Assembly: GCA_947174235.1 (NCBI GenBank)
Contig: CAMWID010000001.1
Span: forward strand, 62,001-126,000
Reading direction: 5' to 3'
DNA length: 64,000 nucleotides
Origin: an uncultured Porphyromonadaceae bacterium
GTDB lineage: Bacteria; Bacteroidota; Bacteroidia; Bacteroidales; Muribaculaceae
Position numbers and translations under genes: made by a program. The notes under the pieces are model-generated. The model had not been told where the DNA came from. It worked only from the letters and a program-made list of their open reading frames with translations, and made no database searches. Positions 39,634 through 62,149 of this stretch are shown here, one piece after another. Within the stretch, counting starts at the first letter, position 1. Each line of letters begins with the position of its first letter.

Positions 39634-39673
39634 AAAAAAAATCCGGACAGAAAAATTCCGTCCGGATTTTTTT
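39634..39673 (-). terminator. Strong terminator at the end of the nuo-atp-nuo array
   Basis: The stem core ATCCGGAC (39641-39648) / GTCCGGAT (39660-39667) is extended by A/T pairs to about 14-15 bp, with an 11-nt loop. On the minus strand a T7 tail follows. It lies 57 bp after the nuoN stop and could work in both directions. Confidence 0.85.
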
Positions 39674-39729: not shown

Positions 39730-41199
39730 TCAGAATATGAGCAGGAACGCCAACGAATCGCGTACCGCGTCGTAGCAGTACTGATAGATGTATGGTACAA
39801 GTCCGAAGAACACGATACCTGCTATACATAGCCACAAAGCGACACGATTGCTGCATGCGCTGCTGAAAGATCCGATCTTGGGTTCTTCAGAACTTATCCA
39901 CATTGCCTTGACAACCAACAGATAATAATACAGTGATATTATCGTATTGATCAATGCTATAAGCACAAGCATGTAGAGTGCCCACGATCCTGACCCCGTA
40001 ACCGAAGTGAAAATAAGGATCTTACTGAAGAATCCTGCAAAGGGAGGTATACCAGCCAATGAGAACATGGCAAGTGTCATTGCGAATGACAACCAGGGGT
40101 TGGTCTTGTGCAATCCATTGTAATCATCCATGTCAAGCTTGCCGGTATTCTCCTCAATTGTCGAAATCACCGCGAACGCGCCAAGGTTGCTGACCACATA
40201 CACAAAGATGTAGAACATCATACCTGCGAGTCCGAGACCATCGGCTGCCATAGCGCCGAGCATGATGTATCCCGCTTGGGAAACTGATGAGAAAGCCATG
40301 AATCGCTTCATGTTCTTCTGTCTTACCGCGAACAGGTTACCTACGGTAATTGTCAATATTATGACTCCGTAAAGCATCCACTCCCAAGCGTCGCTGTAGA
40401 CTGCCCCGAAACATTGCACGAAGATTACAAAGAATGCAAAGGCTGCAGCACCTTTCGATATAACCGAAAGATAGCTGGTGATGGCGGTCGGAGCACCTTG
40501 ATATACGTCAGCTGTCCAAAGATGGAAAGGAACGAGCGATAGTTTGAACCCGATACCTGCGAGAACAAACGCCAGAGCGATAATCAGCAATCCGCTCATG
40601 CCTCCTTGCCCTATAGTGATCGCGATATCATCGAAATAGAGTGAACCTCCCGAAAAAGCATACACGAATGAAAGTCCTGCAAGAAGTACCGCAGATGAGA
40701 ACACCGCTGTCATTATGTACTTGATAGCGGCCTCGTGGCTCTCGTAATGCTTCTTGTTGAATGCGACAAGCGCTGCCAACGGAAGCGATGCGGATTCCAG
40801 ACCGATTATGAACAGAAGGAAATGACGCGCCGACACCATGAGGTACATGCCGAAAAGTGTGACGAGTATCAACTCGTAAAACTCTCCCTTGCGTATCGCC
40901 ACTTCATCGCTTTCAACCCATTTCGAGCTTTGCAGAAACACGATGAAGACACCAACATTGAGTATAGCCTTCAAAGCGTTGGTCGCCGTATCATTTATAT
41001 ACATCCCCCCAAAAACCATCTCGCCGCTTGCCGGAACGATCCATATGGCTACTGTCCCGAGAGCGAACAATATGGTTGTCAAAGGTGTGAGAATCTTTTT
41101 ACCCTTTTCATTAGAAAATGTGTCGAATAAAAAGACCAGCATGAATATTCCGAGAACAATAAGTTCAGGAATCATAGATCCAAATTGAGAATAGTCCAT
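39730..41199 (-). CDS. nuoN: NADH-quinone oxidoreductase subunit N
   Basis: A 489-residue antiporter-like membrane subunit of complex I, one of three proton-pumping modules. About 14 transmembrane helices are visible. The family core with the conserved lysine sits in the helix FKLSLVPFHLWTADVYQGAPT, and a further lysine region is QKNMKRFMAFSSVSQAGYIM. The proton-path Glu lies early in IGLESASLPLAALVAF. It is the last gene of the array, followed by the strong terminator; nuoM precedes it by 35 bp. Confidence 0.95.
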   Translation of the reverse strand: MDYSQFGSMIPELIVLGIFMLVFLFDTFSNEKGKKILTPLTTILFALGTVAIWIVPASGEMVFGGMYINDTATNALKAILNVGVFIVFLQSSKWVESDEVAIRKGEFYELILVTLFGMYLMVSARHFLLFIIGLESASLPLAALVAFNKKHYESHEAAIKYIMTAVFSSAVLLAGLSFVYAFSGGSLYFDDIAITIGQGGMSGLLIIALAFVLAGIGFKLSLVPFHLWTADVYQGAPTAITSYLSVISKGAAAFAFFVIFVQCFGAVYSDAWEWMLYGVIILTITVGNLFAVRQKNMKRFMAFSSVSQAGYIMLGAMAADGLGLAGMMFYIFVYVVSNLGAFAVISTIEENTGKLDMDDYNGLHKTNPWLSFAMTLAMFSLAGIPPFAGFFSKILIFTSVTGSGSWALYMLVLIALINTIISLYYYLLVVKAMWISSEEPKIGSFSSACSNRVALWLCIAGIVFFGLVPYIYQYCYDAVRDSLAFLLIF

Positions 41200-41234
41200 T
41201 TTCGTTTGCCTGTTTTATTTATTCAATACATTAT

Positions 41235-42752
41235 TTAAAGGGCGGCAGATTGGATAGCTGCCATTATGGGTGCGAAACTGTGTTGGATTGTCTCATTTAT
41301 CCAGTTGGGGAAACAGCCGATCCCTGCTATGCAAAGTATCAAGGTGACTGTAGACAATCTCTCGAACCATGTCGCATCTGTCAGCTGAAGGTGGTGTTCG
41401 TCTTGCACCGGACCGAGAAGAAGCTTCCCGACAACGCGAAGAATATACACTGCCGTGATGACAATCGAACAGGTAGCGGCTATCACGAAAATACGATGGA
41501 ACAGATCCGCGTTCTGGAACGAACCAAAGAATATAGTCATCTCCGCTACGAATCCTGAAAGACCGGGCAGACCGAGCGATGCGAAACCGGCAATCATATA
41601 ACATACTCCGAGATAGGGCATGATTTTCATCAGACCACCCATCTGGCGTATGTCTCGCGTATGTGTACGCCCGTAGATCATACCGATCAATGCAAAGAAC
41701 AACGCTGTCATCAATCCATGTGAAAGCATCTGGAGTATGGCACCTGTCATCGCGGTGGTGTTGAGCATGAGTATTGCGAAAAGCACCATGCCGCAGTGCG
41801 AAACCGATGAATATGCATTGATGTATTTGAGGTCTGTCTGGACACAAGCTGAAAACGCGCCATAGACGATGCTGACACCCGTGAGAACAATGAAGATCCA
41901 AGCGAGCTCGTTGGCAGCCTGAGGTAGAAGATAAATAGCGATGCGGAAGCATCCGTAACCACCAAGCTTCATCAATACACCTGCATGAAGCATCGATACA
42001 GCTGTCGGAGCACAGGCATGACCGTCAGGACTCCATGTATGGAACGGGAACATGGCTCCGAGAACTCCAAATCCTACAAATGTAAAACAAAACAGCATAT
42101 TCTGCCATTCCGGAGCAATCGAAGCGTTTCGTGATATTTCAAGGATATTCCAGGTAAGCTGACCACCCTCCGGGGCGCTGTGCCAGTATATTCCGAGCAG
42201 ACCAAGCATTAGGAACGCGGAGCCTCCCATAAGCATGAGGGTAAGCTTCATCGCCGAGTATTCTTTGCGGCCGGTGCCCCAGACTCCGATAAGAAGATAC
42301 ATCGGGATAAGTGCCACCTCATAGAACATGAACATTGTGAAGATGTCTATGGAGATGAAGAAACCGAAAACTCCGGTGCTTAGAAGAGCGAACCAAAGGA
42401 AGAAATTCTTTGGCAGCGGAGAAATCTTCCATGACGCGAATGTGCCTGCAAACACGATCACTGATGAAAGAAGCAACATAAGCACCGATATGCCGTCCAC
42501 ACCTACCGCAAGATGTATGTTGAGCGGCGCATACCACATCCAGCTTCCGGTGTAGAGCATTTCATCGCTCACACCCATTTCGCGCAGACGGAGAAAGTCT
42601 ACGCAAAGCCAGATCGAAAGCCCGAGAAGAACTGTCGAGCATACCACCATGACCGCGCGGATAGCATTCATGCTGCTGTTGCGGCACAAACCCAATCCCG
42701 CCATCATGATGACTGGAATCACAACGAACCAGATTAATATATTTCCGAACAT
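41235..42752 (-). CDS. nuoM: NADH-quinone oxidoreductase subunit M
   Basis: A 505-residue antiporter-like subunit. Marks are MFYEVALIPMYLLIGVWG (conserved Glu on helix 5), FPFHTWSPDGHACAPTAVSM in the discontinuous helix, the conserved lysine helix DLKYINAYSSVSHCGMVLFA, and GLPGLSGFVAEMTIFFGSF. It has about 14 transmembrane helices. It translocates protons during quinone reduction. Gap to nuoL upstream is 34 bp. Confidence 0.96.
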   Translation of the reverse strand: MFGNILIWFVVIPVIMMAGLGLCRNSSMNAIRAVMVVCSTVLLGLSIWLCVDFLRLREMGVSDEMLYTGSWMWYAPLNIHLAVGVDGISVLMLLLSSVIVFAGTFASWKISPLPKNFFLWFALLSTGVFGFFISIDIFTMFMFYEVALIPMYLLIGVWGTGRKEYSAMKLTLMLMGGSAFLMLGLLGIYWHSAPEGGQLTWNILEISRNASIAPEWQNMLFCFTFVGFGVLGAMFPFHTWSPDGHACAPTAVSMLHAGVLMKLGGYGCFRIAIYLLPQAANELAWIFIVLTGVSIVYGAFSACVQTDLKYINAYSSVSHCGMVLFAILMLNTTAMTGAILQMLSHGLMTALFFALIGMIYGRTHTRDIRQMGGLMKIMPYLGVCYMIAGFASLGLPGLSGFVAEMTIFFGSFQNADLFHRIFVIAATCSIVITAVYILRVVGKLLLGPVQDEHHLQLTDATWFERLSTVTLILCIAGIGCFPNWINETIQHSFAPIMAAIQSAAL

Positions 42753-42786
42753 AATGTTAAGTTATTTCTTAATTGCAACATGAATG

Positions 42787-44730
42787 TTATATCAGACATA
42801 GCCATGTGATAGCTGCAACGGCAACCGCGCCGGCGATATACCAACCCACGTATGACTGGATCTCGCCAGACTGCATGCCGCGGATAGCATATGATGTCTT
42901 TTGTGTGATTTTTGCGAACGCATCCATTGTGGCGTCAATGATATGACGGTCAAACCAAGCGATCCCCTTGCAAATGATATCGAAGATGATCCTGTGGGTG
43001 ATAAACATGTAGATCTCATCCCAGTAGAACCTGCGGTGGGCAGCTGTCCAAAGGGCGGGACACATATTCTTGACTTTAGTAGGAAGCGCGTTCTTCTTCA
43101 TATACATCGCGGCTGCGAGAGCTATCGCACATACTGCAACCACAAGACTCGTGGCTGCCACAGGAGCCTCGATATGTATATGGTAAGGTTCTCCGTTCCA
43201 AGTGACCAGTTCTCCGAACGGTATGAAGCCTGCCACTATCGACACCGCTCCAAGGAATATAAGCGGCAACGACATCTGCCAGGGCGCGTCGTGCGGCTTG
43301 TGCTCTTTATAATGGGGGTTTTCCTCCCACCAGAACACAAGGAAGTACATACGGAACATATAGAAAGCGGTAAGACCGGCTACCATTGTCATCCATGCCC
43401 CCCAGAACCAATGACGTGCGAACATTGCGGCAAGCATCTCGTCTTTCGAGAAGAATCCGGCGAAAGGCCATATTCCTGCAATCGCAAGACATCCTATGAG
43501 GAAGGTCACGTGGGTGATGGGCATGTATTTCCTCAGACCGCCCATCGAAGTATAGTTATTGGAATGTACAGCATGTATCAAAGCGCCGGCGCCAAGGAAG
43601 AGCAACGCCTTGAACATGGCATGTGTGAAGAGATGGAACATGCCTGCCATATAACCAAGACCGGAATAATGCACACCCTCTATCGGCTTGTCGTATGCCA
43701 CACCAAGTGATACCATCATGAATGCTATCTGTGATATGGTTGAAAACGCGAGAATCCTCTTGATGTCGATCTGCGCACACGCCACTACCGCGGCATAGAA
43801 CGCAGTGATCGCGCCTATCACACAGATAAATGTCATGGCGGCGTCGACAACACAATACACCGGGAACATTCTTGCCACAAGATATACACCGGCAACAACC
43901 ATGGTTGCCGCATGAATAAGCGCCGAAACCGGCGTAGGACCTTCCATTGCGTCGGGAAGCCAGATATGCAGCGGCATCATCGCCGATTTACCCATACCGC
44001 CGGTGAAGATAAGCACCATGGCCCAGGTTAGTACAGACGCACCCATAAAGGTAGCTCCCCCTGTTGATGCGAGAACTCCTTCGGGATTAGTGGTCATATC
44101 CACGAAATTGAATGTGTCAGTGTAGAATGACAGCAACAGAATACCGATAAGGAATCCAAGATCGGCGAAACGTGTCACAATAAAAGCTTTCTTCGACGCG
44201 GATACAGCCGACGGCAACTTATAGAAGAATCCGATCAAAAGGTAGGAAGACACACCCACAAGCTCCCAGAATATATACATCTGGAAAATATTGGTGGCGA
44301 CAACCAATCCAAGCATCGAGAAAGAGAAGAGCGAAAGAAACGCATAATATCTCTGAAATCCGGGCTCGCCCTCCATATATCCCCAGCTGTAAAGATGCAC
44401 CATAAAGGAGATAGTGGTGATCACTACAAGCATCATCGCGGAGATAGGATCAAGAAGAAAGCCGATATTCACTACAAGAGTCTGGGTAAACGCCAGCCAG
44501 GTGACATCAAACACCTGATATTGCTGACGCACTCCATCGAGGATAAAATTGGCGTCACCGCTGAAGAAATAGGTGAATGCAACAATGTAGGCGAGCACCG
44601 CAGTCGTCCCCATGCCGAGAATACCTAATATCCCGGCAAGCTTATGCGACATCTTTACCCCGCCTATTCCTAAGACGAGGAACATTGTGATCGGAATCGC
44701 CAAAATCAAAATTGGAAGAGTAATGTCCAT
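42787..44730 (-). CDS. nuoL: NADH-quinone oxidoreductase subunit L
   Basis: A 647-residue subunit: the distal antiporter module with the long lateral helix at its C-terminal end. Marks are FWELVGVSSYLLIGFFYKLP (conserved Glu), MPLHIWLPDAMEGPTPVSAL, DIKRILAFSTISQIAFMMVS (lysine helix) and HAMFKALLFLGAGALIHAVH. The segment after about residue 540 holds the amphipathic helix and a final membrane anchor (YIAGAVAVAAITWLCLI). Gap to nuoK is 3 bp. Confidence 0.97.
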   Translation of the reverse strand: MDITLPILILAIPITMFLVLGIGGVKMSHKLAGILGILGMGTTAVLAYIVAFTYFFSGDANFILDGVRQQYQVFDVTWLAFTQTLVVNIGFLLDPISAMMLVVITTISFMVHLYSWGYMEGEPGFQRYYAFLSLFSFSMLGLVVATNIFQMYIFWELVGVSSYLLIGFFYKLPSAVSASKKAFIVTRFADLGFLIGILLLSFYTDTFNFVDMTTNPEGVLASTGGATFMGASVLTWAMVLIFTGGMGKSAMMPLHIWLPDAMEGPTPVSALIHAATMVVAGVYLVARMFPVYCVVDAAMTFICVIGAITAFYAAVVACAQIDIKRILAFSTISQIAFMMVSLGVAYDKPIEGVHYSGLGYMAGMFHLFTHAMFKALLFLGAGALIHAVHSNNYTSMGGLRKYMPITHVTFLIGCLAIAGIWPFAGFFSKDEMLAAMFARHWFWGAWMTMVAGLTAFYMFRMYFLVFWWEENPHYKEHKPHDAPWQMSLPLIFLGAVSIVAGFIPFGELVTWNGEPYHIHIEAPVAATSLVVAVCAIALAAAMYMKKNALPTKVKNMCPALWTAAHRRFYWDEIYMFITHRIIFDIICKGIAWFDRHIIDATMDAFAKITQKTSYAIRGMQSGEIQSYVGWYIAGAVAVAAITWLCLI

Positions 44731-44733
44731 ATC

Positions 44734-45051
44734 TTAGAACTTCATTTTATTAATTTCTGTAACATCTGTGTTCCCGATTGACCGGTAGATATTGATTATT
44801 ATCGCGATGGCGATCGCTGTCTCAGCCGCGGCTATTGCGATAGCAAAAAGCGTGAATACCATACCGTCCATGCTGCCGGGGAAAAGAAACCTGTTGAAAA
44901 CCACAAAATTCAAATCCGCTGAATTGAGCATCAATTCCAGGGATATGAGAATCGCGATCAAATTTTTACGGGTGACAAAACCGTAAATGCCGCACGCGAA
45001 CATAACCACGCTCGGCACAAGATACCATAACATACTTAAATCCATATCCAC
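44734..45051 (-). CDS. nuoK: NADH-quinone oxidoreductase subunit K
   Basis: A 105-residue membrane subunit with three transmembrane helices. The two buried carboxylates of the E-channel are visible: Glu in LIAILISLELMLNSADLNFV and Glu in AIAAAETAIAIAIIINIYRS. Its start directly follows the nuoJ... stop/start junction (no gap: nuoK is translated after nuoJ, whose stop is at 45052). Confidence 0.96.
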   Translation of the reverse strand: MDMDLSMLWYLVPSVVMFACGIYGFVTRKNLIAILISLELMLNSADLNFVVFNRFLFPGSMDGMVFTLFAIAIAAAETAIAIAIIINIYRSIGNTDVTEINKMKF

Positions 45052-45579
45052 TTAGCTTTTCCGGGCAACAGTTACCCCTCCGATTATACATGCGAGCAAC
45101 AAAACACTTATCGCCTCGAACGGAAGCAGATACTGGAAGCGTCCGCTACCTGTAAACGCCTCTCCTATCTCACGCATTGTGATTCCATGGCCTGCCTGAA
45201 TACACTCCGCCAACGACGCCCCATGAAGTAGAGGCATGTAGAAAAGTGCGAACAGAAGCAAAACCGCAGAAGCCCCCGACAGAACAACTCCAATCGTCTT
45301 GCGGTGAGATTCAATCATTCCTGAAGCATCGTTAGGCTTATGGGTCAACAATATCGCAAACACGAACAGAACCATTATACCTCCGGCATAGACGGCGATC
45401 TGGACAGCCCCGAGGAACTGATACCCCAGCTGAAAATAGAAAACCGCAGTGCCGAGAAGCACGAACAGAAGGTAGGTCGCGGCGCGCAATATCTTGCCCG
45501 TTGTCACTGCCTTGAATGAGAAAAACACTATGGCAATGGCAACAATGAAATACACGATTATATTTCCTACTGAATCCAT
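45052..45579 (-). CDS. nuoJ: NADH-quinone oxidoreductase subunit J
   Basis: A 175-residue membrane subunit with five transmembrane helices. The signature of helix 3 with its pi-bulge lies in FLGAVQIAVYAGGIMVLFVF. It contributes to the channel linking the quinone site to the antiporter modules. It sits 6 bp after nuoI and abuts nuoK with no gap. Confidence 0.95.
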   Translation of the reverse strand: MDSVGNIIVYFIVAIAIVFFSFKAVTTGKILRAATYLLFVLLGTAVFYFQLGYQFLGAVQIAVYAGGIMVLFVFAILLTHKPNDASGMIESHRKTIGVVLSGASAVLLLFALFYMPLLHGASLAECIQAGHGITMREIGEAFTGSGRFQYLLPFEAISVLLLACIIGGVTVARKS

Positions 45580-45585
45580 TATGAT

Positions 45586-46239
45586 TTATTTTTCTTTATT
45601 TTCTTCTTTTGAACCGGCACCGGCTTCTCCGGATGCCTGATTTTCTCCTCCTGCGGCAGCCGCTTTTGCAGCAGCTTCCTTCTCTGCCTTGATCTTGGCG
45701 GCTTTTGCAAGAGCCTCAGCCTTGATCTTTGCAAGTTTCTCAGGATCCATCGCCGGCTTGGGAGCCGGAGCTGCGGGATCTTCTTTAGGCTCCGGGCGAT
45801 AGTTCAGCTGTTTGACAAGACTTCCGCGTGTAAATACCGCCTGTTCGAAATCGTTTGTAAATTCAAGCGCATCCTGAGGACAAGTAGTGACACAAAGCAT
45901 ACAGAAAGTGCAGCTTCCAATATCATACATGTACTTGTCAAGCTTACGTTTTTTCTTTCCGTCAGGGAGTTCGACCATCTTTGTGGTCAGCTGAATCGTT
46001 CCATTAGGACAGTTCATCTGGCAGATGCCGCAGGCAATACACTTGTGTCGCCCTTCACTGTCGTACTTTAATGTGAGTTCCGCCCTGAATCGATCCGCAA
46101 TCTTAAGCGTGTCGCGGTTCTCGGGATAACATTCGGTGATTTTCGGAGTGACCAGCTCTTTCCCGGTCACCACCATACCGTCAATTAGACTTTTAAGTCC
46201 TTTTCCGGCTTCCGAAAAATACTCCTTTATACTACTCAT
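45586..46239 (-). CDS. nuoI: NADH-quinone oxidoreductase subunit I with a long charged C-terminal tail
   Basis: A 217-residue peripheral-arm subunit with two [4Fe-4S] clusters (N6a/N6b), shown by CIACGICQMNCP (Cys67, 70, 73, 77) and CTFCMLCVTTCP (Cys110, 113, 116, 120). The core ends near residue 150. The remaining 65-70 residues are a low-complexity tail rich in Ala, Lys, Glu and Pro (APAPKPAMDPEKLAKIKAEA and on to GSKEENKEK), probably disordered or helical, absent from E. coli NuoI (180 residues). It follows atpG by 46 bp and resumes the nuo genes after the ATP synthase block. No promoter box is seen in that gap. Confidence 0.95.
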   Translation of the reverse strand: MSSIKEYFSEAGKGLKSLIDGMVVTGKELVTPKITECYPENRDTLKIADRFRAELTLKYDSEGRHKCIACGICQMNCPNGTIQLTTKMVELPDGKKKRKLDKYMYDIGSCTFCMLCVTTCPQDALEFTNDFEQAVFTRGSLVKQLNYRPEPKEDPAAPAPKPAMDPEKLAKIKAEALAKAAKIKAEKEAAAKAAAAGGENQASGEAGAGSKEENKEK

Positions 46240-46285
46240 TTAGTCAATACTTTTTGATTCGATTTCATGATGATTATGCCACGGC

Positions 46286-47176
46286 CTATCTTTCTACCTG
46301 ACCACCCAATATGTCAAGAAGTTCGGTCGTGATTCCTTGCTGGCGAAGCTTGTTGAATTCAAGTTGCAACGATTCAAGCAATTTCTTGGCATTATCGTTC
46401 GCACTCTGCATCGCCATAACTCGCGCCGCCTGCTCCGATGCCCTGTTTTCAATGGTTATTTCCTGCATTGTTGACAACACAAACATCGGAAGGACCTCAT
46501 TGAAAATGCTATTTGCATCAGGCTCGAATATATATAATTTGTTTTCAGTCTCTCTTTCCTGATTATCTCCCTCTATAGCTGAATTGCTTACAGGGAAAAG
46601 CTGCTCGACCTTGAGCATCTGCTTGCTCATGCTCTTGAACTGCATGTAGACCACTTCTATGAGATCAAATTCTCCGGAAACAAAACTTCCTTTGAGATCA
46701 TGCACGAATTCATTCACAGCCGTCGGAAGCATCTTGGAATCCACACCGTCAATAATCTTGACTTCAATCCCTGTAGAATGCATCCTTGAAACAGCTTTAG
46801 CAATTTTTTTACCTACCGGCAACACTGTCAGCACGACATTATCGCCATATTCCTGTCGCAGACGGCTTATCTCTATCAGCAAATGTTTGAACACATTGAG
46901 ATTGTATGCGCCGCAAAGACCGTCATCGGTGCCGTAAACCACAACACCGATTCTTTTCACCTCCCTTTTCTCAAGCAGGGGCGAATCAAACTCCACACCG
47001 GTATCAAGCAAATGACCCATTATGGATTTCACCTGATTCTTGAAAGGCAAAAGTTTTCTTAACTCCGCCTCGTTCTTATGAACCTTGGCTGAAGATATCA
47101 TTTTCATGGCGCCGGTGATCTTTTCACTCGACGACACAGAACCGATACGGGTCTTCAAGGCTTTGAGAGTTGCCAT
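46286..47176 (-). CDS. atpG: ATP synthase F1 subunit gamma
   Basis: A 296-residue rotor shaft subunit. The N-terminal helix (MATLKALKTRIGSVSSSEKI, then TGAMKMISSAKV) and the C-terminal helix (RVMAMQSANDNAKKLLESLQ, then EFNKLRQQGITTELLDILGG) form the coiled-coil shaft. The middle has the Rossmann-like globular part (VVYGTDDGLCGAYNLNVF). It is the last gene of the atp block, separated from atpA by 113 bp containing a stable hairpin, and followed by nuoI. Confidence 0.96.
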   Translation of the reverse strand: MATLKALKTRIGSVSSSEKITGAMKMISSAKVHKNEAELRKLLPFKNQVKSIMGHLLDTGVEFDSPLLEKREVKRIGVVVYGTDDGLCGAYNLNVFKHLLIEISRLRQEYGDNVVLTVLPVGKKIAKAVSRMHSTGIEVKIIDGVDSKMLPTAVNEFVHDLKGSFVSGEFDLIEVVYMQFKSMSKQMLKVEQLFPVSNSAIEGDNQERETENKLYIFEPDANSIFNEVLPMFVLSTMQEITIENRASEQAARVMAMQSANDNAKKLLESLQLEFNKLRQQGITTELLDILGGQVER

Positions 47177-47227
47177 CTGTTGATTATTCTGAAACGGTTA
47201 TTAAATACGGCTTCAATTGTCTGACGC

Positions 47228-47241
47228 CGTTTATATAAACG
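47228..47241. repeat. Perfect 14-bp palindrome between atpA and atpG
   Basis: CGTTTATATAAACG reads the same on both strands. It lies 7 bp from the larger hairpin in the same gap. It could be a protein-binding site or part of an mRNA fold. Confidence 0.6.
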
Positions 47242-47248
47242 CATGCAC

Positions 47249-47275
47249 CGGCGGGAGTAGTATCGACTCCCGCCG
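47249..47275 (-). promoter_or_regulatory. Stable intercistronic hairpin between atpA and atpG
   Basis: A perfect 10-bp GC-rich stem CGGCGGGAGT (47249-47258) / ACTCCCGCCG (47266-47275) with a 7-nt loop. No T run follows on the minus strand, so it is not a standard terminator. It may stabilise or punctuate the message between alpha and gamma, which are needed in a 3:1 ratio. Confidence 0.55.
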
Positions 47276-47289
47276 CCACATACTATTTT

Positions 47290-48867
47290 TTAAGATTTGT
47301 ATCGAGAAGAAATCTCTGAAGCGCATTGCTCGAGCTTAGACTGAACATCTTCGGTAAGTTTGCCCGCCTTGAGCTCGTCAAGCACTTCTTTCTGATATTT
47401 AGCCTTAAGCAACTGTATGAATGAATCTTCAAACTCATGTACCTTTTCTATTGGTACATTTTCAAGAAGTCCATTCACACCGCAATATATCACAGCGATC
47501 TCATTTTCCACAGGCCATGGCTGGTACTGCGGCTGGATAAGAAGCTGCTGGTTTTTTCTACCCCTGTCTATGACTCTCGCAGTGACAGGGTCTATATCAC
47601 CACCAAACTTGGTAAACGATTCGAGTTCCCTGAACTGAGCCTGGGCGATCTTCAGTGTGCCTGCCACTTTCTTCATCGCCTTTATCTGCGCGTTACCGCC
47701 CACACGTGATACGGATATACCCACGTTGATTGCCGGACGTATACCTTGATTGAAAAGACTTGTCTCAAGGAATATCTGACCGTCTGTAATAGAAATCACA
47801 TTCGTGGGAATATATGCGGATACGTCGCCCGCCTGTGTCTCGATAATCGGCAATGCTGTCAGAGAACCTCCACCTTTGACAATAGGTTTCAACGCTTCCG
47901 GAAGGTCATTCATAGTCTCAGCCACCTCCTGATTGTCAATAATCTTCGCGGCTCTTTCCAAAAGACGTGAATGCAGATAGAAAATATCTCCGGGATATGC
48001 CTCTCGTCCTGACGGACGTTTGAGAATCAGTGAGATTTCCCTATATGCCACGGCTTGTTTAGACAAGTCATCATATACGATGAGCGCATCACGACCTGTG
48101 TCACGGAAATATTCTCCGATAGCCACACCCGCGAACGGACTGTAATAGCGCATTGATGCAGAATCAGACGCCGAAGCCGCGACAACCACCGTATATTCCA
48201 TCGCGCCATATTTCTCCAAAGTATGCACAAGTGCAGCGATAGAAGACGCTTTCTGTCCTATGGCGACATAAATACAATACACCGGCTTGCCGTCAAGATA
48301 GTTCTGACGCTGATTGATTATTGTGTCGATCGCTATAGCAGTCTTACCGATCTGTCGGTCGCCGATTATAAGTTCCCTCTGACCTCGTCCGATGGGAATC
48401 ATCGCATCCACAGCCTTGATACCTGTCTGTAACGGTTGGGTCACAGGCTGACGGAAAATCACTCCCGGAGCCTTGCGTTCGAGAGGGAGATTGATCAGAT
48501 CACCGCTGATCGGACCTTTGCCGTCGATAGGTTCACCCAGGATATTGATCACCCTGCCAAGCAGCCCTTCCCCTACGGGGATTGACGCGATCTCACCCGT
48601 GCGACGCACCGACATGTTTTCAGTAACTTTATTTACATTGTTGAGAAGCACAACACCCACATTGCTCTCCTCAAGATTGAGAGCGACACCTTTGACGCCG
48701 TTCTCAAACTCTACAAGCTCGTTTGACTTCACATTCTCAAGTCCGTAGACGTGGGCAACTCCGTCGCCCACTTCGAGCACGGTACCCACCTCCTCAAACT
48801 TCACCTGTGAAGTCACATTTTCGAGCTGCTGTTTTAGAATATCAGATATTTCGCTTGGGTTAAGCAT
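47290..48867 (-). CDS. atpA: ATP synthase F1 subunit alpha
   Basis: A 525-residue non-catalytic nucleotide-binding subunit. The P-loop [13 protein letters not shown], the family signature [36 protein letters not shown], and the C-terminal signature region [14 protein letters not shown] are all visible, along with the arginine-finger region near it. Full length. The start is 4 bp after the atpH stop. Confidence 0.97.
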
Positions 48868-48871
48868 TTTG

Positions 48872-49417
48872 TCAATTGCTTCTTAATAGGGTTTGACGTA
48901 GTTTCTCGAGTTCGCTGCTGACAGAGGCATCCATCCTTACGGAATCAACATCTATCACAAACCCGCCGATAAGATCGGGATTAACCGACTCCGAAAACTC
49001 AAGTACCGATCCTTTGAACGCGTTTCTGACAAGATCCTGCAATTTTTGCATCTGTGCCTCCGGCAAAGTTACCGCCGTGGTCACATTCACCTGCATGATA
49101 TCGTTCTCTTTTCTATATATGTCACGATATGCGAGCATGATCTCATAGGCGAAACCGGCACGGTTATGCCCGATTATCAGCTTCACAAAACGTGTGTACG
49201 CTTCATCGGCCTCATTACCGGCTGCAGAAAGCATCAGCTTCTCCTTGTCGCTTGAAGACACGAACGGGTTTGACAGCACCTTTCTTAAATCCGGATTGTC
49301 TCTGAATGAAGAGATCACATGCTTCATGAGATTATACATCTCTTCCGTCTTGCCTGTTTCAGACGCGTATTTAAAAAGCGCCTTGGCATATCTGTGGGGT
49401 ATGAGACCGTTGTCCAT
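48872..49417 (-). CDS. atpH: ATP synthase F1 subunit delta
   Basis: A 181-residue subunit joining the F1 head to the peripheral stalk. The N-terminal helical bundle begins [20 protein letters not shown], and the C-terminal signature region is [20 protein letters not shown], close to the delta/OSCP pattern. It lies 4 bp after atpF. Confidence 0.95.
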
Positions 49418-49421
49418 CGGA

Positions 49422-49916
49422 TCAGTTTTTCTCTATTTCGTCCAACAATTTGTCTACAAGTTCAGTCTGTGCCTTATCGCTCTTAAGCTGATTACGTACC
49501 ATCTTTTCCGCGATCTCAAGAGAGAACTTGCTCACTTCATCTCTAAACTGAAGCTCGGCTTCCTTGCGTGATTGTTCTATCGACACTTTCGCAGCATCCA
49601 TTACTTTCTTAGCCTCTTCAGACGCCTCCTTTTTGGCTTCTTCGATTATCTGAGATTTCATTTTGGCTGCATCACGCAAAATATCAGCTTGCTGTTTCCG
49701 TGCGTCATCGAGAAATTTCTGTGCATCAGCACGGGCTGAGTCAAGCTGCGCCTTAGCCTCTCTGGCATATTCCACACCTTTGTCTATGGTGTCGGCGCGC
49801 TTGTCCATATTCTTGATGATTACCGGCCATCCCCATTTCGCAAGCACGAAAAACAGGATGATAAAGGCGATAAACATCCAGAATACCAAGCCTAATTCGG
49901 GCGTGAACAATTCCAT
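49422..49916 (-). CDS. atpF: ATP synthase Fo subunit b
   Basis: A 164-residue peripheral-stalk subunit. One N-terminal transmembrane helix (GLVFWMFIAFIILFFVLAKW) is followed by a long Glu/Lys/Ala-rich coiled coil from about residue 35 to the end (AREAKAQLDSARADAQKFLD). Gap to atpE is 34 bp and to atpH 4 bp. Only one b-type subunit is encoded, as is usual for homodimeric stalks. Confidence 0.95.
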   Translation of the reverse strand: MELFTPELGLVFWMFIAFIILFFVLAKWGWPVIIKNMDKRADTIDKGVEYAREAKAQLDSARADAQKFLDDARKQQADILRDAAKMKSQIIEEAKKEASEEAKKVMDAAKVSIEQSRKEAELQFRDEVSKFSLEIAEKMVRNQLKSDKAQTELVDKLLDEIEKN

Positions 49917-49950
49917 TGTGACAGGATTTTAACGTTGGTGTCGAGATTGA

Positions 49951-50208
<258 letters not shown>

Positions 50209-50245
50209 TTAAGTGTTATTGATTTTTTATTTGTTCTTTTGTAAT

Positions 50246-51574
50246 TCAGACGGGAGCTTCCGCAGTGCCGTCTTTCCTTATTGCTTCATCTTCATCGGGC
50301 AATGATTCATGAATCACCTTCTCATGTTTTGACTCATGGTGACCGTCTTCCTGCGCCATTGATATGAACAATGTTGAAAGTAGCGTGAAGACGTATGCCT
50401 GTATGAAGCTCACAAGGACATCAAGCGCAAGCATGAATATCGAAAAAATAATCGAAATCACTACCGATCCACCGGTCGCCGCCGCCCCGAATGCCGTGAA
50501 TATGAAGATAAGAAGAGTAAGCGTAATGACAATCATATGTCCGCCCATCATGTTGGCGAAAAGACGGACGCACAATGCCGCCGGCTTTGTGAAAATTCCA
50601 AAAATCTCGATGAACTGCATTATCGGAATCGGGAATTTCAAAAACAAGGGAACGTCCGGCCAGAAAATCTCTTTCCAATAATGCTTCGTAGCCTTCACGT
50701 TGACGACTACAAAAACCATTACCGCAAGCACAAGTGTGACTGCAATATTTCCGGTAAGATTTGCCCCTCCCGGGAAAATGACAATCAGTCCGACCAGATT
50801 CATGACAAGTATAAAGAAAAAACATGTCAAAAGAAACGGAGCATATTTGTTTGCCTTGTCATGAAGTGTGGATTTGATCACTCCTGTGTAAATGAAACCT
50901 ATGAGCATTTCCATAAAGCCCGTGCCCTTGCGGGGTGCCTTATAGCCGTTTTTAGTATACCACCTTACCACAGACATGACCATCAAGGTCACAATCAACG
51001 ACGCAATGAAAAGGGCAAGCACATTTTTAGTGATGGAAAAGTCAAAGGGTCTGTATTCTTTATAATACACGCCATCATATAGCACATATCCGTCGACAAC
51101 CTTATCTATTCCAAACTTCCCTTCGGTACTGTCATTATCGGCAGCTGCCCGTAATTCATTTTTTTCAGACTCCGTCTCTACCGGAAAAATCTGGACTACC
51201 TTGTTGCTGTGGCTGCTGACACCCGCAAGAAGAAAACGGTAGGATTTTCCATCTTTCTCGATGGTTACAATCTGTGGTACCGCTTCTTCAACTACTTTTC
51301 CAGTCTTAGGATCAGTTTCCTCCTCAATTCGGGTAAGCCGAGAAGATGAGAAACAAATCCATTTGCCGTCTTCCGCCCTGACAATCACAGGAAGAGGGAT
51401 ACGGTATGTATGACTGAAAGGCACCTCCCAGCCATATCCATCGCCAAGGTGATGGAACATGATCTCTTTGACATTCACACCACCTTCATCATTTCCCGAT
51501 GCATTTGCCTTGAACGGAGAAATGAAAAACATGGCGACAATTGCCAAAATTATTGATAACTTTTTTGAGTTCAT
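50246..51574 (-). CDS. atpB: ATP synthase Fo subunit a with an extended N-terminal domain
   Basis: A 442-residue stator channel subunit. The catalytic part is the C-terminal half: the essential arginine lies in AALCVRLFANMMGGHMIVI, and the last helix is FIQAYVFTLLSTLFISMAQE. The N-terminal 190 residues are extra compared with E. coli (271 residues in all): a signal-peptide-like start (IILAIVAMFFISPFKANASG) and a soluble, probably periplasmic region before the first core helix (LALFIASLIVTLMVMSVV). Bacteroidetes a subunits commonly carry such an extension; this one is on the long side. atpC precedes it by 35 bp; no atpI lies between. Confidence 0.95.
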   Translation of the reverse strand: MNSKKLSIILAIVAMFFISPFKANASGNDEGGVNVKEIMFHHLGDGYGWEVPFSHTYRIPLPVIVRAEDGKWICFSSSRLTRIEEETDPKTGKVVEEAVPQIVTIEKDGKSYRFLLAGVSSHSNKVVQIFPVETESEKNELRAAADNDSTEGKFGIDKVVDGYVLYDGVYYKEYRPFDFSITKNVLALFIASLIVTLMVMSVVRWYTKNGYKAPRKGTGFMEMLIGFIYTGVIKSTLHDKANKYAPFLLTCFFFILVMNLVGLIVIFPGGANLTGNIAVTLVLAVMVFVVVNVKATKHYWKEIFWPDVPLFLKFPIPIMQFIEIFGIFTKPAALCVRLFANMMGGHMIVITLTLLIFIFTAFGAAATGGSVVISIIFSIFMLALDVLVSFIQAYVFTLLSTLFISMAQEDGHHESKHEKVIHESLPDEDEAIRKDGTAEAPV

Positions 51575-51609
51575 TCCTTGAGAGTTTAACCGTTATCTAA
51601 TCCCGTCCG

Positions 51610-51846
51610 TCAATACACGCAGACTGAGACAACATTATTATCAACGTCTACCAGTCCACCTTTGATATCCACGCTAATCTCCTCCCCTCCCTTGCTCTTG
51701 TAAATTATTGAGCCGGACTTTAGAACAGATATCAGCGAAGCATGGTTTTTCAAAACTGTAAACGACCCCATCACTCCGGGAAGAGTGACTGCCTCTGCAT
51801 CTCCCTTGAAGAGAATTTCGCTTGGAGATATTATTTCAAGTGTCAT
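51610..51846 (-). CDS. atpC: ATP synthase F1 subunit epsilon, short form
   Basis: A 78-residue protein covering only the N-terminal beta-sandwich of epsilon (MTLEIISPSEILFKGDAEAV; then LPGVMGSFTVLKNHASLISV). The two C-terminal helices that inhibit ATP hydrolysis in E. coli epsilon (139 residues) are missing. The stop is followed by ordinary intergenic sequence, not by a shifted frame continuing the domain. Short epsilon subunits are known in Bacteroidetes. It lies 39 bp after atpD. Confidence 0.93.
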   Translation of the reverse strand: MTLEIISPSEILFKGDAEAVTLPGVMGSFTVLKNHASLISVLKSGSIIYKSKGGEEISVDIKGGLVDVDNNVVSVCVY

Positions 51847-51885
51847 GACCGGTATTTCGTTAAATATATTCAGATACGAGTGTTA

Positions 51886-53415
<1,530 letters not shown>

Positions 53416-53433
53416 TTATTTTATATACTTCTT

Positions 53434-54510
53434 TTAGAAGTGCCATCCTAAAGCCACGAACACTGCCATCAACACGAGATTGGCAAGCGACAGAGGCATA
53501 AGATATTTCCATTCAAACGACAACATCTGGTCGATCCTTACACGTGGGAATGTCCATTTGAACCAAATGATCACATAAGATACAAAGAAACTTTTCCCAA
53601 GGAACCATACCACTGAAGGGATATAATTCATTACATTATTGAAAGAATCCCATCCAGGTATGTGGAGAGGCATCCATCCGCCAAGGAACATCAAAGATGC
53701 AACACCAGAAACGATGAAAAGGTTCAAATATTCCGCGAGATAGAAAAATCCGAAATGAATACCGGAGTATTCCGTATGATAACCTGCGGTAAGCTCATGT
53801 TCCGCCTCCGGAAGGTCGAAAGGACCTCGGTTGGTTTCCGCAGTAGCGGCTACAACATATATAAGGAATGCTATTATCGCAGGAATATGTCCCCTGAAAA
53901 TAAACCATGCCTTGTCCTGTGCCCACACAAGTTCGTTGATGTTCATTGTCCCGGCAAAAACGATGATCGTTATTATGGCGAGACCAAGGGAGATCTCATA
54001 ACTTATCATCTGGGCACCGCTTCGCATCGCACCGATCAGAGTGTATTTGTTGTTGGAAGCCCAACCGGCGAGCAAGATACCCAAGACTCCGACTGACGAT
54101 ACTGCCAATATGAAAAAGATTCCGATATTATAATTGATGATCTGCAGACCGTTACCCCATGGCAGACAAGCAAGCATCACTACCGAGGAAGTAATTATGA
54201 GATATGGTGCGAGTTTGAACAGGAAACGGTCTGTGTCCTTAAGACTGATAAGCTCCTTGATAAGGATCTTGAACATATCGGCGAACACCTGAAGCAAACC
54301 CCATTTACCCACTCGCATCGGACCGAGCCTACACTGGAACCACGCGCAGAGTTTGCGTTCATAAAGAATATAGAAAAGGGCGAGTACCGTATAGGTGAGC
54401 AGCACCAGCAACGCGATTATGACACACTCCACCAAGACTGTCGCCCATTCAGGGAGAAAGCCCATCAGGAAGTTATTGAGTTCGCTGGTCCATATTCCGA
54501 AATTAAACAT
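53434..54510 (-). CDS. nuoH: NADH-quinone oxidoreductase subunit H
   Basis: A 358-residue membrane subunit that forms part of the quinone chamber. Marks are FYILYERKLCAWFQCRLGPM(RVGKWG following), the central loop block GAMRSGAQMISYEISLGLAI, and ETNRGPFDLPEAEHELTAGY with the conserved Glu cluster. About eight transmembrane helices. It starts 58 bp after nuoCD. The gene after it is atpD rather than nuoI, the point where the atp block begins. Confidence 0.96.
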   Translation of the reverse strand: MFNFGIWTSELNNFLMGFLPEWATVLVECVIIALLVLLTYTVLALFYILYERKLCAWFQCRLGPMRVGKWGLLQVFADMFKILIKELISLKDTDRFLFKLAPYLIITSSVVMLACLPWGNGLQIINYNIGIFFILAVSSVGVLGILLAGWASNNKYTLIGAMRSGAQMISYEISLGLAIITIIVFAGTMNINELVWAQDKAWFIFRGHIPAIIAFLIYVVAATAETNRGPFDLPEAEHELTAGYHTEYSGIHFGFFYLAEYLNLFIVSGVASLMFLGGWMPLHIPGWDSFNNVMNYIPSVVWFLGKSFFVSYVIIWFKWTFPRVRIDQMLSFEWKYLMPLSLANLVLMAVFVALGWHF

Positions 54511-54568
54511 AATATCTATTGAAATTCGTTTGCGGTTTATGTTGATTAGTTACTATTGTATAGCTTTC

Positions 54569-56200
54569 TTATCTGTCGATATCGGGTATCACAAAGTCAA
54601 GTGCCGCACCGATTGTTATAAGGTCTGCTATCATATACCCTGAACAAGTCAGATCCATGACTCCGACAAGATTGAAACACGGACTCTGGAAATGTACTCT
54701 ATATGGGTTCTTGTCTCCGGTGGATTCTATATACACTCCGAATGTACCGCGGCTCGCCTCAACCTGCTGATACCAGCTGCCGGCAGGAAGTTTGATTACT
54801 TTTGGAACCTGCGCGCGGATGTCGCCCTCGGGGATGCGATCCACAAGCTGCTCCAATATCCGACAGCTCTGTTCGATCTCCTTCATACGGACCATATACC
54901 TGGAGTAGGAATCACATCCTGTCTCAAGCACTTCCTCGAAATCAAGTTCGGAATATATGGCATAAGGATGCTTCTTACGACAGTCGCAACTCCATGCCGA
55001 GCCTCTTCCACTGGGTCCGGTGATCGCATAATTTATGGCGTCTTCCTTAGAAAGATGCCCTACCTTTTTAAGTCGGTTCTTTGCGATCAGATTACCGCTG
55101 AAGACCTTATGATATTCCTTCAGTCTGGAAGGCATGATACTGATCAGCTCCTTCACATCTTTGACAAAATCGGCATGCAGATCAGCTATAACACCTCCGA
55201 TGACATTATAATTCATCGACATTCTCGCGCCGCATGTTTTTTCAAAGATATCAAGAATCATCTCTCGCTCACGGAACCCATAGAAGAATGCTGTTGTCGC
55301 GCCAAGGTCCATGGCGGTACATCCGAACGAAAGCAGATGGCTCGATATTCGCATAAGCTCATCCATCATCACCCTGATCACCTGTGCCCTGCGCGGAACC
55401 TCGAGACCCATCGCTTTTTCTATGCACATACAGAGACAATGACGGTTCTGATGCGCCGACATGTAATCCATACGGTCAGTGAAATGAAGTATCTGCGGGT
55501 AAGTCAGACCTTCGCTCAGTTTCTCTATCCCCCGGTGGATATAGCCGGACACCACATCAACTTTCTTGACGATTTCTCCGTCGACTGAAGCCCTGAAACG
55601 CATGACTCCGTGTGTGGACGGATGCTGCGGACCAATGTTGACTACATATTCGTCATCCTCAAAAACCTTGCCCGGAACTTCCTTGACATTCCCTTCGGCA
55701 TCTTCCACATATCTTACGGTGGCATCTTCATTAGCCTCGTCTTCCGTAGGTATCGGGTTCAGCTTGGGATCCGCATCATAATCTTTCCTGAGTGGATAAC
55801 CCTTCCAGTCATTACGCAAGAAAAATCTGCGCATGTCGGGATGATTGATGAATTTTATACCATAAAAATCGTAAACCTCCCTTTCCTGGAAATTTGCAAC
55901 TTTCCACAAATCACTCACACTATGAATCATAGGATTCTCCCTGTCAGGCACCGACACCTTTACGGAAATGACATCCCATCCTCTTGAAGTGGATGTCAGA
56001 TAATAAATTACTCCGAGGGAATCCTTCCAGTCCATACCGACCACAGCCGAAAGGACATCAAATTCCAGACCTTTGGTTTCCTTGAGGGCTTTGGCAAAAC
56101 CGTACCAATCCTTCTCTTCCACCGTCACCATCAGGGTGTCGCCCTCTGTGATGACTGCGGAGGGAAGAATACGGCTGATTATTTCTTTAATTTCGCTCAT
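54569..56200 (-). CDS. nuoCD: NADH-quinone oxidoreductase fused subunits C and D
   Basis: A fused peripheral-arm protein of about 543 residues. The NuoC part covers about 1-150 (FQEREVYDFYGIKFINHPDM with RRFFLRNDWKGYPLRKDY is its signature). The NuoD part covers about 165-543 (NIGPQHPSTHGVMRFRASVD, the quinone-site His region; DRMDYMSAHQNRHCLCMCIE; C-terminal DFVIPDIDR). The Cys pair that binds Ni in hydrogenases is absent, as expected. The start at 56200 (MSEIKEIISR) is preferred; an in-frame ATG at 56224 would add eight residues with no family match. Fused nuoCD is common in Bacteroidetes. Confidence 0.94.
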   Translation of the reverse strand: MSEIKEIISRILPSAVITEGDTLMVTVEEKDWYGFAKALKETKGLEFDVLSAVVGMDWKDSLGVIYYLTSTSRGWDVISVKVSVPDRENPMIHSVSDLWKVANFQEREVYDFYGIKFINHPDMRRFFLRNDWKGYPLRKDYDADPKLNPIPTEDEANEDATVRYVEDAEGNVKEVPGKVFEDDEYVVNIGPQHPSTHGVMRFRASVDGEIVKKVDVVSGYIHRGIEKLSEGLTYPQILHFTDRMDYMSAHQNRHCLCMCIEKAMGLEVPRRAQVIRVMMDELMRISSHLLSFGCTAMDLGATTAFFYGFREREMILDIFEKTCGARMSMNYNVIGGVIADLHADFVKDVKELISIMPSRLKEYHKVFSGNLIAKNRLKKVGHLSKEDAINYAITGPSGRGSAWSCDCRKKHPYAIYSELDFEEVLETGCDSYSRYMVRMKEIEQSCRILEQLVDRIPEGDIRAQVPKVIKLPAGSWYQQVEASRGTFGVYIESTGDKNPYRVHFQSPCFNLVGVMDLTCSGYMIADLITIGAALDFVIPDIDR

Positions 56201-56243
56201 GTTGTCTCTCGATTCGAATATCAATTATACTCTCAGAGGCTCA

Positions 56244-56876
56244 TCAGCCGATGCGGCCTTCCTCCTCGGGATGTTTCTCAAAAAATTCTGAAATCTTTTC
56301 TTTTCTATTGACTCCTCCAAAGAATTTCTGCACCTTTATCTTACGCTGAAGCTGCATGAGCCCATAGAAAAAAGCCTCCGGACGGGGAGGACAGCCGGGA
56401 ATATACACATCGACCGGAAGAATCTGATCAACTCCCGGCACGACACAGTAAGAATTTTTAAAAGGACCTCCGGACACCGCACATCCTCCGCACGCTATCA
56501 CATATTTCGGCTCGGCGAGCTGTTCATACAGACGGCGGACAACCGGAGCCATGCGATGTACAATAGTGCCCTGCACCATGATATAGTCTGCCTGCCTCGG
56601 TGAATTGCGCGCAACCTCAAAACCGAAACGCGCCATATCATAACGTGCAGCGCCAAGGCTCATGAATTCAATAGCGCAACAGCTTGTCCCGAAACATAGA
56701 GGCCAAAGCGAATTGGAGATGCCCCAGTTGATTAGCTGATCGAGCTTACCGACCATGACGTTGGCACCCGTTGCATTGAGTTCCTCCACCAGACTGTCAA
56801 TATACTCGTTGTCCTTGAAGTCCTCATGCTTCATGCTTTTGATCTTCACTTCCATGCCAACGCTCCTTTCCGCCAT
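56244..56876 (-). CDS. nuoB: NADH-quinone oxidoreductase subunit B
   Basis: A peripheral-arm subunit of up to 210 residues carrying the terminal N2 [4Fe-4S] cluster next to the quinone site. Ligands are the tandem cysteines Cys66 and Cys67 ([10 protein letters not shown]), Cys132 ([11 protein letters not shown]) and Cys162 ([12 protein letters not shown]). The longest start at 56876 overlaps nuoA by 31 bp; in-frame ATGs at 56855 (10-bp overlap) and 56834 (no overlap) are also possible, and 56855 (MEVKIKSMK) looks most natural. Confidence 0.94.
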
Positions 56877-57217
56877 GCATATGCAAGGCCCATTATGAGT
56901 ACGAACATGAAGATACCGATACAGAGAAGACCCTGCGGACCAAGGCTACGCATCACTACCGACCATGGATAGAGAAAAACTGTTTCCACATCAAAGATGA
57001 GGAAAAGAATTGCAAAAATGTAATAGCCCGCCTTAAACTGGATCATTGACTCTCCACGGGTAGGGATACCACACTCATACGGCTCCGACTTCTTGACAGA
57101 ATACGATTTCGGAGAAATCAATTTCGCTATCAACAAAGCAGCAAACACAAGACCTATGCCCGTCAATGTGGCGGTCACAGCAAGGGTGTTGTTGCTTATC
57201 TCCAACAAAAGATTCAT
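56846..57217 (-). CDS. nuoA: NADH-quinone oxidoreductase subunit A
   Basis: A 123-residue membrane subunit with three transmembrane helices. The signature between helices 1 and 2 is [20 protein letters not shown], with the loop Cys that reports on active/deactive state in other organisms, followed by [20 protein letters not shown]. It is the first gene of the array and lies 75 bp downstream of a near-consensus promoter. Confidence 0.95.
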
Positions 57218-57291: not shown

Positions 57292-57322
57292 CAAAGATAC
57301 TAAAAAATCTAAATGCATGAAA
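57292..57322 (-). promoter_or_regulatory. Promoter of the nuo-atp-nuo array
   Basis: On the minus strand TTTC (57319-57322), a 19-nt spacer and TATCTTTG (57292-57299), a perfect -7 box with a one-mismatch -33 box. The leader would be about 70 nt. This is the only good promoter I see for the 18 genes down to 39730. Confidence 0.65.
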
Positions 57323-60934: not shown

Positions 60935-62149
60935 ATGAAATCTATCAGAGAATTGTATAGGATCGGCACCGGTCCATCGTCAAGCCACACGATGGGACCG
61001 CGCAAAGCCGCAGAAATTTTCTTCAAAAGCCACAGGCACGCCGAAGGGTACGAGGTGGTTCTTTATGGCAGCCTTGCCGCTACCGGGAAAGGGCACATGA
61101 CTGACGTCGCCATCCATGACGTTCTGTCGCAAAGCGACCTACCGGTGAAAATCATATGGAAGCCTGATATCTTTCTCCCATATCACCCCAACGGCATGAC
61201 ATTCCGCAGCCTTAACGCAGCAGGTCTTCCGTCTGACGAATGGACGGTATACAGCGTAGGCGGAGGTGCCATTGAAGGCGAGGGTCTCGCTCATGAAGGC
61301 GGTGCGGAAATCTATGACAAAAACACCATGACGGATATCATGGATTATTGCGACCGCAGCGGACGAAGCTATTGGGAATATGTGGAACATTGCGAGGGGG
61401 AGGGAATAAACGACTTCCTTGACCAGGTTTGGTCTACCATGAAAGCTGCCGTAGAAAAGGGGCTCGCCACTGACGGCAGACTCCCCGGTCCGCTAAATCT
61501 CCGCAGAAAGGCACGAGCGTATTACATGAGAGCGGAAGGCTACCGTGACAACCTCCGGTCCCGTGGTCTCGTCTTCTCTTATGCTCTTGCGGTGAGCGAA
61601 GAAAACGCTTCCGGCGGAACAATCGTCACCGCACCCACCTGCGGAAGCTGCGGGGTAGTTCCCGCAGTATTATACCACCTGTGGAAAAGCCGCAACTTTT
61701 CAGATATGGAGATCCGGCACGCTCTCGCCACCGCCGCACTTATAGGAAACGTCGTAAAGCATAACGCGAGCATTTCAGGCGCGGATGTGGGATGTCAGGG
61801 TGAGGTCGGAGTGGCTTGTGCCATGGCGGCAGGAGCAGCCTGCCAGCTGTTCGGAGGGACACCGGCTCAAATCGAATATGCCGCCGAAATGGGACTCGAA
61901 CACCATCTTGGGATGACATGTGACCCAGTCTGCGGTCTTGTCCAGATTCCTTGTATAGAACGCAACGCATATGCCGCCGCCAGAGCCCTTGACGCCAATA
62001 TATATTCAACGTTCTCCGACGGACGCCACCGTGTCAGCTTCGACAAGCTTATACAAGTCATGAAAGAAACAGGTCATGACCTGCCATCGCTGTATAAGGA
62101 AACCGGCGCTGGCGGACTGGCGAAAGACTATCAGATAGACAACGTCTGA
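60935..62149 (+). CDS. L-serine ammonia-lyase, single-chain iron-sulfur type
   Basis: A 404-residue cytoplasmic enzyme converting L-serine to pyruvate and ammonia. The N-terminal beta domain begins with SIRELYRIGTGPSSSHTMGP, the alpha domain starts near 150, and the [4Fe-4S] cysteines are in APTCGSCGVV, CDPVCGLVQIPC. Alpha and beta parts are fused as in E. coli SdaA/SdaB, but the chain is about 50 residues shorter. It works opposite to serB elsewhere in the window. Transcribed alone or with the downstream RNase Z gene (82-bp gap, no terminator seen). Confidence 0.94.
   Translation: MKSIRELYRIGTGPSSSHTMGPRKAAEIFFKSHRHAEGYEVVLYGSLAATGKGHMTDVAIHDVLSQSDLPVKIIWKPDIFLPYHPNGMTFRSLNAAGLPSDEWTVYSVGGGAIEGEGLAHEGGAEIYDKNTMTDIMDYCDRSGRSYWEYVEHCEGEGINDFLDQVWSTMKAAVEKGLATDGRLPGPLNLRRKARAYYMRAEGYRDNLRSRGLVFSYALAVSEENASGGTIVTAPTCGSCGVVPAVLYHLWKSRNFSDMEIRHALATAALIGNVVKHNASISGADVGCQGEVGVACAMAAGAACQLFGGTPAQIEYAAEMGLEHHLGMTCDPVCGLVQIPCIERNAYAAARALDANIYSTFSDGRHRVSFDKLIQVMKETGHDLPSLYKETGAGGLAKDYQIDNV

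Follow-up and report, generated by a model that had tools for sequence, protein, structure and literature searches.

How the genes for a proton pump and for an ATP synthase come to lie one set inside the other, and whether such nesting makes them one unit of expression or only neighbours, is the question raised by a gene cluster of an uncultured Porphyromonadaceae bacterium placed in the Muribaculaceae (assembly GCA_947174235.1, contig CAMWID010000001.1). The window analysed here is the 64,000-nucleotide stretch from position 62,001 to 126,000 of that contig, and all coordinates count from its first letter. Between 57217 and 39730 on the minus strand, the list of open reading frames (ORFs) and their translations give 18 open, co-directional genes in the order nuoA-B-CD-H, atpD-C-B-E-F-H-A-G, nuoI-J-K-L-M-N. 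The nested arrangement is already known for the Muribaculaceae and is ordinary there, having been described by Ormerod et al. (2016; PMC4936053). As set out below, a single Bacteroidales clade has inherited it from far back, so that it is no oddity of a single genome, and we put at about 0.75 the probability that it is a lineage-specific, vertically inherited super-operon, most likely a single unit of ~17.5 kb tuned by hairpins.

The initial annotation had claimed this gene order, intact and on a shared strand, with gaps of 45 bp between nuoH and atpD and 46 bp between atpG and nuoI; all 18 ORFs were found open at the places given, and both gaps (53389-53433 and 46240-46285, minus strand) have the claimed lengths. 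The best NCBIfam match is the expected subunit for every one of the 18 proteins (NuoA, B, C/D, H, AtpD, C, B, E, F, H, A, G and NuoI-N), with scores under the curated cut-offs for some, e.g. AtpC, NuoA, NuoI and NuoJ. The genome contains one match to PF00146, the NuoH-type domain, which is the nuoH of the cluster, and no nuoE, nuoF or nuoG was found in the cluster, the part of the genome searched for them.

Within the family the arrangement is uniform. A sample of 59 genomes from 30 genera of the window's family (f1) was searched with a joined NuoH, NuoI and AtpD query, and atpD lies directly after nuoH on the same strand in all 56 genomes for which both genes were listed; two of the remaining three (G065, G067) have a nuoH row only and the third (G059) has neither a nuoH nor an atpD row. 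Forty loci of at most 20 kb each were fetched, one per genus for the 30 genera and ten from six other families, and the full 18-gene order is present in 38 of them, or in 39 of 41 when L149 is added; the two exceptions are a contig end (L118) and a run of N inside nuoI (L095). The latter also accounts for an apparently split cluster in G027, with nuoJ-N ~1 Mb off, which was rejected as biology: the N run cuts nuoI in L095 and the matching tail adjoins nuoJ in L148. Among the 80 closest named loci, a complete atpD lies 24-143 bp past nuoH in 75, while atpD runs off the contig in three and the contig ends before atpD in two; the gap from atpG to nuoI is 7-268 bp in 65 of the 80, the rest having one gene missing or cut. 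Across the fetched loci the nuoH-atpD junction has a median of 46 bp (range 17-132 bp, n=41) and the atpG-nuoI junction a median of 74.5 bp (maximum 177 bp, n=40).

Beyond the family, 89 of 218 genomes of the order Bacteroidales gave a NuoH/NuoI match at E <= 1e-40, and the spacing of nuoH and nuoI was counted by hand among the matches listed. On this count the two genes are nested (~6.6-7.2 kb apart, one strand) in 14 genomes from seven families (f1, f22, f28, f60, f68, f88 and f109), lie on two contigs in a fifteenth genome (G257, f88) and are adjacent in 46; the remaining 28 have no usable NuoI among the matches listed, or only distant paralogues, seven of them (G014, G017, G079, G105, G115, G124, G132) being shown as adjacent in another listing. 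No nested genome outside the seven families was found among the matches listed for the 218 genomes. A search of family f106 covered 56 genomes from 17 genera; both nuoH and atpD are present in 24 of them, and the nested order in none of these 24. Among 75 genomes of the class (72 of them from other orders, and one giving no match at all) and 90 of the phylum, for which nuoH was counted among the matches listed, a joined nuoH-atpD match was found only in G000. The initial annotation started from the view that Bacteroidetes keep nuo and atp in separate operons, which holds for most sampled Bacteroidales lineages but not for the seven nested families; nor, by the comparison of nuoH-nuoI neighbourhoods in the sampled genomes, is nesting the norm of the order.

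Trees of three kinds place the nested genomes together. For RpoB, 30 genomes were asked and 28 used, the window's own genome (whose match is a fragment) and G156 (f88, no match) being absent, so that this tree lacks both f88 and the window; in it the nested rows (12 of 28, six families) form one clade with support of 100/99. In the nuo tree, to which nuoL was added and in which L089 was used in place of the truncated, long-branched L009, the nested rows (16 of 25, seven families including f88) again form one clade (96/97). The tree of atpD and atpA shows the same split between nested and non-nested rows, weakly, with an SH-aLRT value of 78. The nested order of the seven families is consistent with one origin, which we consider probable. 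A further, sequence-based sign of shared ancestry may lie between atpC and atpB: a small ORF of 119-141 aa, perhaps AtpI-like, occurs there in 6 of 7 outgroup atp clusters (L130 vs L133, L135, L140, L141, L142, L144, L146) and is absent from G174 (f106), from G020 and from the window, the gap being 8 bp in G174 and a median of 13 bp in the nested loci.

Family f106 adjoins the nested clade in the AtpD/AtpA tree but lies further out in the RpoB tree, and it contains two types of AtpD, ~78% and ~70% identical to that of the window, with nuoH listed only alongside the first type; a transfer of the atp block is possible on such grounds. One f106 genome (G174), with nuo and atp ~11 kb apart on opposite strands, was considered as an intermediate and is not supported as such, because in other f106 genomes with both sets on one contig they lie from ~18 kb to >1 Mb apart. 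In another class of the phylum, genomes of family f134 (G315, G319, G335, G346, G354, G358) have nuoH and atpD on opposite strands, converging, with ~9-12 kb between them, a second and separate case of complex I genes clustered with those of ATP synthase. A plasmid search returned one record only, with a short atpD match.

Two explanations of the order itself can be judged on this evidence. That assembly fused two operons is a point which the initial annotation had raised as a possible join error, and the window's genome is indeed a draft of 138 contigs, while the relative G027 shows an artefact of just this sort, with the N run in nuoI and nuoJ-N elsewhere on the scaffold; yet conservation of the junction in 56/56 family genomes excludes both chance and assembly error, since it recurs in independent assemblies of the family and of six other families, among them G076 with its 3.3 Mb contig, and we regard an artefact as next to impossible. 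Passage of the whole nested cassette horizontally between families, in place of one ancestral event, would fit the failure of the atpD and atpA tree to separate f88 and f106 firmly, but the nested rows fall on one side of a branch in the RpoB, nuo and atp trees alike and the order is confined to the seven families among the matches listed, which makes such spread improbable.

What had been described before covers part of this picture. In the section of their paper that concerns these genes, Ormerod et al. (2016; PMC4936053) reported for 'Ca. Homeothermaceae' (S24-7, Muribaculaceae) that the locus for complex I has the genes of an F-type ATP synthase integrated within it, with an 11-subunit complex I without NuoEFG, the synthase in 26 of 30 S24-7 genomes, a Na+-pumping Nqr in 27 of 30, and one genome, H5, as a case of joint deletion. 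The host of the window belongs to the same family by its nearest records, and its synthase genes likewise lie inside the complex I locus; as to nuoE/F/G, none was found in its cluster, the part of the genome searched. Neither exact boundaries nor transcription signals nor any spread past the family are given in that section, and the present analysis adds six further families, the single clade and the intergenic hairpins. No other description of the nested arrangement was found among the titles and starts of abstracts listed, in a search that reached few subscription papers. The nuo operon of Bacteroides fragilis (BF638R_0841-0850) is also without nuoEFG, and according to the parts of the paper that treat it, it takes no detectable part in oxidising NADH and is poorly expressed in rich medium (PMC7002350); unlike the window's cluster it is a separate operon and would have no atp genes inside, since its run of ten locus tags matches a set of ten nuo genes. 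In Bacteroides and Prevotella the eight atp genes have an internal order identical to that of the window and form one unit, which is treated there as the ATP synthase transcription unit in a paper whose main text does not contain the word 'nuo' (PMC5709465), and the NuoH and NuoI proteins of Prevotella bryantii, as given in the relevant part of PMC6560451, have neighbouring accessions, which suggest that nuoH and nuoI adjoin in that species.

Whether the 18 genes form one transcription unit can be approached through the signals at their ends and joints. The Bacteroidetes -7 consensus is TAnnTTTG. Both the promoter (57292-57322) and the strong terminator (39634-39673) that had been annotated for the cluster were recovered: the former as a Bacteroidetes-type promoter on the minus strand, with the -7 element TATCTTTG at 57299-57292, ~75 bp ahead of the nuoA ATG, and a weak -33 element (TTTC) near 57320, and the latter as an intrinsic terminator at 39676-39632, minus strand, with a 20-pair hairpin and a T tail, the 106-nt stretch around it having a folding z of -7.95. 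When the consensus was scanned within 300 bp upstream in the relatives, with expectations drawn from mononucleotide shuffles only, it was enriched before nuoA (30/40 loci vs 7.1 expected), was in no excess before atpD (4/41 vs 6.1) and was absent before atpG (0/41 vs 2.2). At the other end, 25 of 39 loci have a terminator-like hairpin after nuoN; at the nuoH-atpD junction such hairpins occur in three of 41, where they are formed by sequence inside the start of atpD. The short conserved gaps, the motif before nuoA and the terminators after nuoN fit one long transcription unit, which is the simplest and best reading of these signals.

The largest internal gap of the cluster, 113 nt between atpA and atpG (47177-47289, minus strand), holds a predicted hairpin of 17 pairs that begins 6 nt past the atpA stop and has no U-run behind it, and the gap as a whole folds at -40.7 kcal/mol (z -5.13). 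The junctions of relatives were surveyed for folding where gaps were of 30-300 nt, the closest relatives (L009-L089) being treated as members of the window's genus in view of NuoH identities of 77-98%, against at most 75% in other genera. In these relatives the atpA-atpG gap has a mean z of -3.87 over 50 distinct gaps, 36 of which fall below -3, and the hairpin is weak or missing in a few, e.g. L017, L020 and L064; that the window and the majority of these relatives have it is a new observation. Since the hairpin arms vary in sequence between species and a U-rich stretch stands behind them in only 2 of 44 gaps, these structures look like mRNA-stabilising or processing hairpins, not terminators. 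In other genera of f1 the gap is mostly short (12 gaps of at least 30 nt; mean z -0.91). The structured gap of the sister families is instead that between atpG and nuoI, with a mean z of -3.67 over nine gaps, five of them below -3, two f28 gaps of 17 and 6 nt being too short for the survey.

A candidate H-type pseudoknot was found by script before nuoI in five loci (L109, L111, L113, L115, L116), where AUACCGG (or AUACCG) in a hairpin loop would pair with a downstream CCGGUAU that is followed by nuoI; among 60 mononucleotide shuffles per locus, none reached its score. Two further loci (L098, L101) have the same words but no script score, ATACCG followed by CGGTAT occurs in 8 of 105 gaps, including L123 as a plain hairpin, and unrelated words set off the script in six gaps as well (L030, L076, L100, L105, L120, L123). 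Rfam gave no match at the candidate pseudoknot in six of the seven loci (all but L101); at gathering scores it gave one match in seven relatives, a tRNA, and sub-threshold matches only in the window's cluster.

Several of the results count against a single, hairpin-tuned unit, or at least complicate it. The -7 motif is also raised before nuoI (6/40 vs 2.3 expected), nuoL (10/39 vs 5.7) and nuoM (10/39 vs 5.0), and there may be internal promoters of other kinds. Terminator-like hairpins stand before nuoI in five of 40 loci (L123, L124, L125, L126, L128), all of f60, f68 and f109, so that some lineages may split or attenuate the unit there; they also occur upstream of nuoA in seven of 40, a sign that the hairpin scan has a background. 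Structure in the closest relatives extends to other gaps, namely atpF-atpH (mean z -2.44, n=10), atpE-atpF (mean z -1.68, n=52, 16 of 52 below -3) and nuoH-atpD (nine of 72 gaps below -3), the means for the remaining junctions lying between -0.88 and -0.15. G059, a candidate for linked loss of nuo and atp, failed as such, having kept AtpA and NuoM. Of the claimed co-transcription, then, the gap lengths, the enrichment before nuoA and the terminators after nuoN are in favour, and the motif excess and hairpins before nuoI are not.

The same excess and hairpins before nuoI, with the strong hairpin past atpA that the window shares with close relatives, would be expected if the genes were neighbours only, expressed as two or three units (nuoA-H, atpD-G and nuoI-N) with promoters of their own and held in order by the inertia of gene order. 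Such units would, however, call for promoters where the motif shows no excess, before atpD and atpG; the nuoH-atpD gap stays within 17-132 bp over 41 loci, and the atpA-atpG hairpins have no U-run in 42 of 44 gaps. We therefore think separate units unlikely. Somewhat less remote, and still tentative, is a reading in which the 18 genes give one mRNA and the ratios of pump to synthase and of alpha and beta to gamma are set by lineage-specific RNA structures, independently placed: the hairpin after atpA, a hairpin before nuoI in some sister families, and the candidate pseudoknot before nuoI in five to seven other Muribaculaceae genera. With hairpins after atpA or before nuoI, it becomes doubtful that pump and synthase are made in fixed ratio, and the unit need not yield one; the structured intergenic RNA suggests instead non-uniform expression within it, which corrects the argument from ratio. 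The initial annotation also proposed that co-transcription could aid co-assembly. If RNA structures did set the ratios, the cluster would be a natural series on how an operon for two machines sets their proportions.

Under the preferred reading, a single inherited unit, a complete Bacteroides-type atp block (beta-epsilon-a-c-b-delta-alpha-gamma) would have come between nuoH and nuoI, at their short gap, in a nuo operon that had no nuoEFG, in a common ancestor of the Muribaculaceae and six neighbouring families, and the order would have been retained since. Transcription would start at the Bacteroidetes-type promoter ahead of nuoA and end ~17.5 kb on, at the terminator that follows nuoN, placing all the genes under joint regulation, and an H+-pumping, quinone-reducing complex would be co-expressed with an H+-driven synthase in anaerobic fumarate or low-oxygen respiration. 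Their relative amounts are probably adjusted post-transcriptionally, through hairpins that close individual sub-blocks: the one behind atpA in the window and the majority of its close relatives, and the one before nuoI in some sister families. Set beside the separate operons of close relatives, the nested clade offers a clear comparative case for the effect of linking a proton pump to the synthase. As the cluster has no NuoEFG, NADH oxidation by the pump should not be taken for granted. An AtpE of the Na+ type carries Ser or Thr after the conserved Glu; the AtpE of the window is without these residues, and its synthase is therefore likely to be driven by H+. It would be sensible for an H+ synthase to be paired with an H+ pump and kept separate from the Na+-pumping Nqr.

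All genes of the cluster lie on the minus strand and were assigned from their ORFs and NCBIfam matches. The leading complex I genes are nuoA (56846-57217, 123 aa), nuoB (56244-56876, 210 aa, overlapping nuoA by 31 bp), nuoCD, a fusion of C and D (54569-56200), and nuoH (53434-54510, 358 aa); for nuoCD we chose the ATG at 56200, which may be the start instead of the TTG at 56224. The synthase block comprises atpD (beta; 51886-53388, 500 aa), atpC (epsilon; 51610-51846, 78 aa), atpB (a; 50246-51574, 442 aa, with a long N-terminal extension), atpE (c; 49951-50196, 81 aa), atpF (b; 49422-49916, 164 aa), atpH (delta; 48872-49417, 181 aa), atpA (alpha; 47290-48867, 525 aa) and atpG (gamma; 46286-47176, 296 aa). 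It is followed by nuoI (45586-46239, 217 aa), nuoJ (45052-45579, 175 aa), nuoK (44734-45051, 105 aa, with a GTG start), nuoL (42787-44730, 647 aa), nuoM (41235-42752, 505 aa) and nuoN (39730-41199, 489 aa). NuoI ends in a low-complexity, Lys/Ala-rich tail of ~65 residues (45586-45780 in the window), and the tail in G027 is similar.

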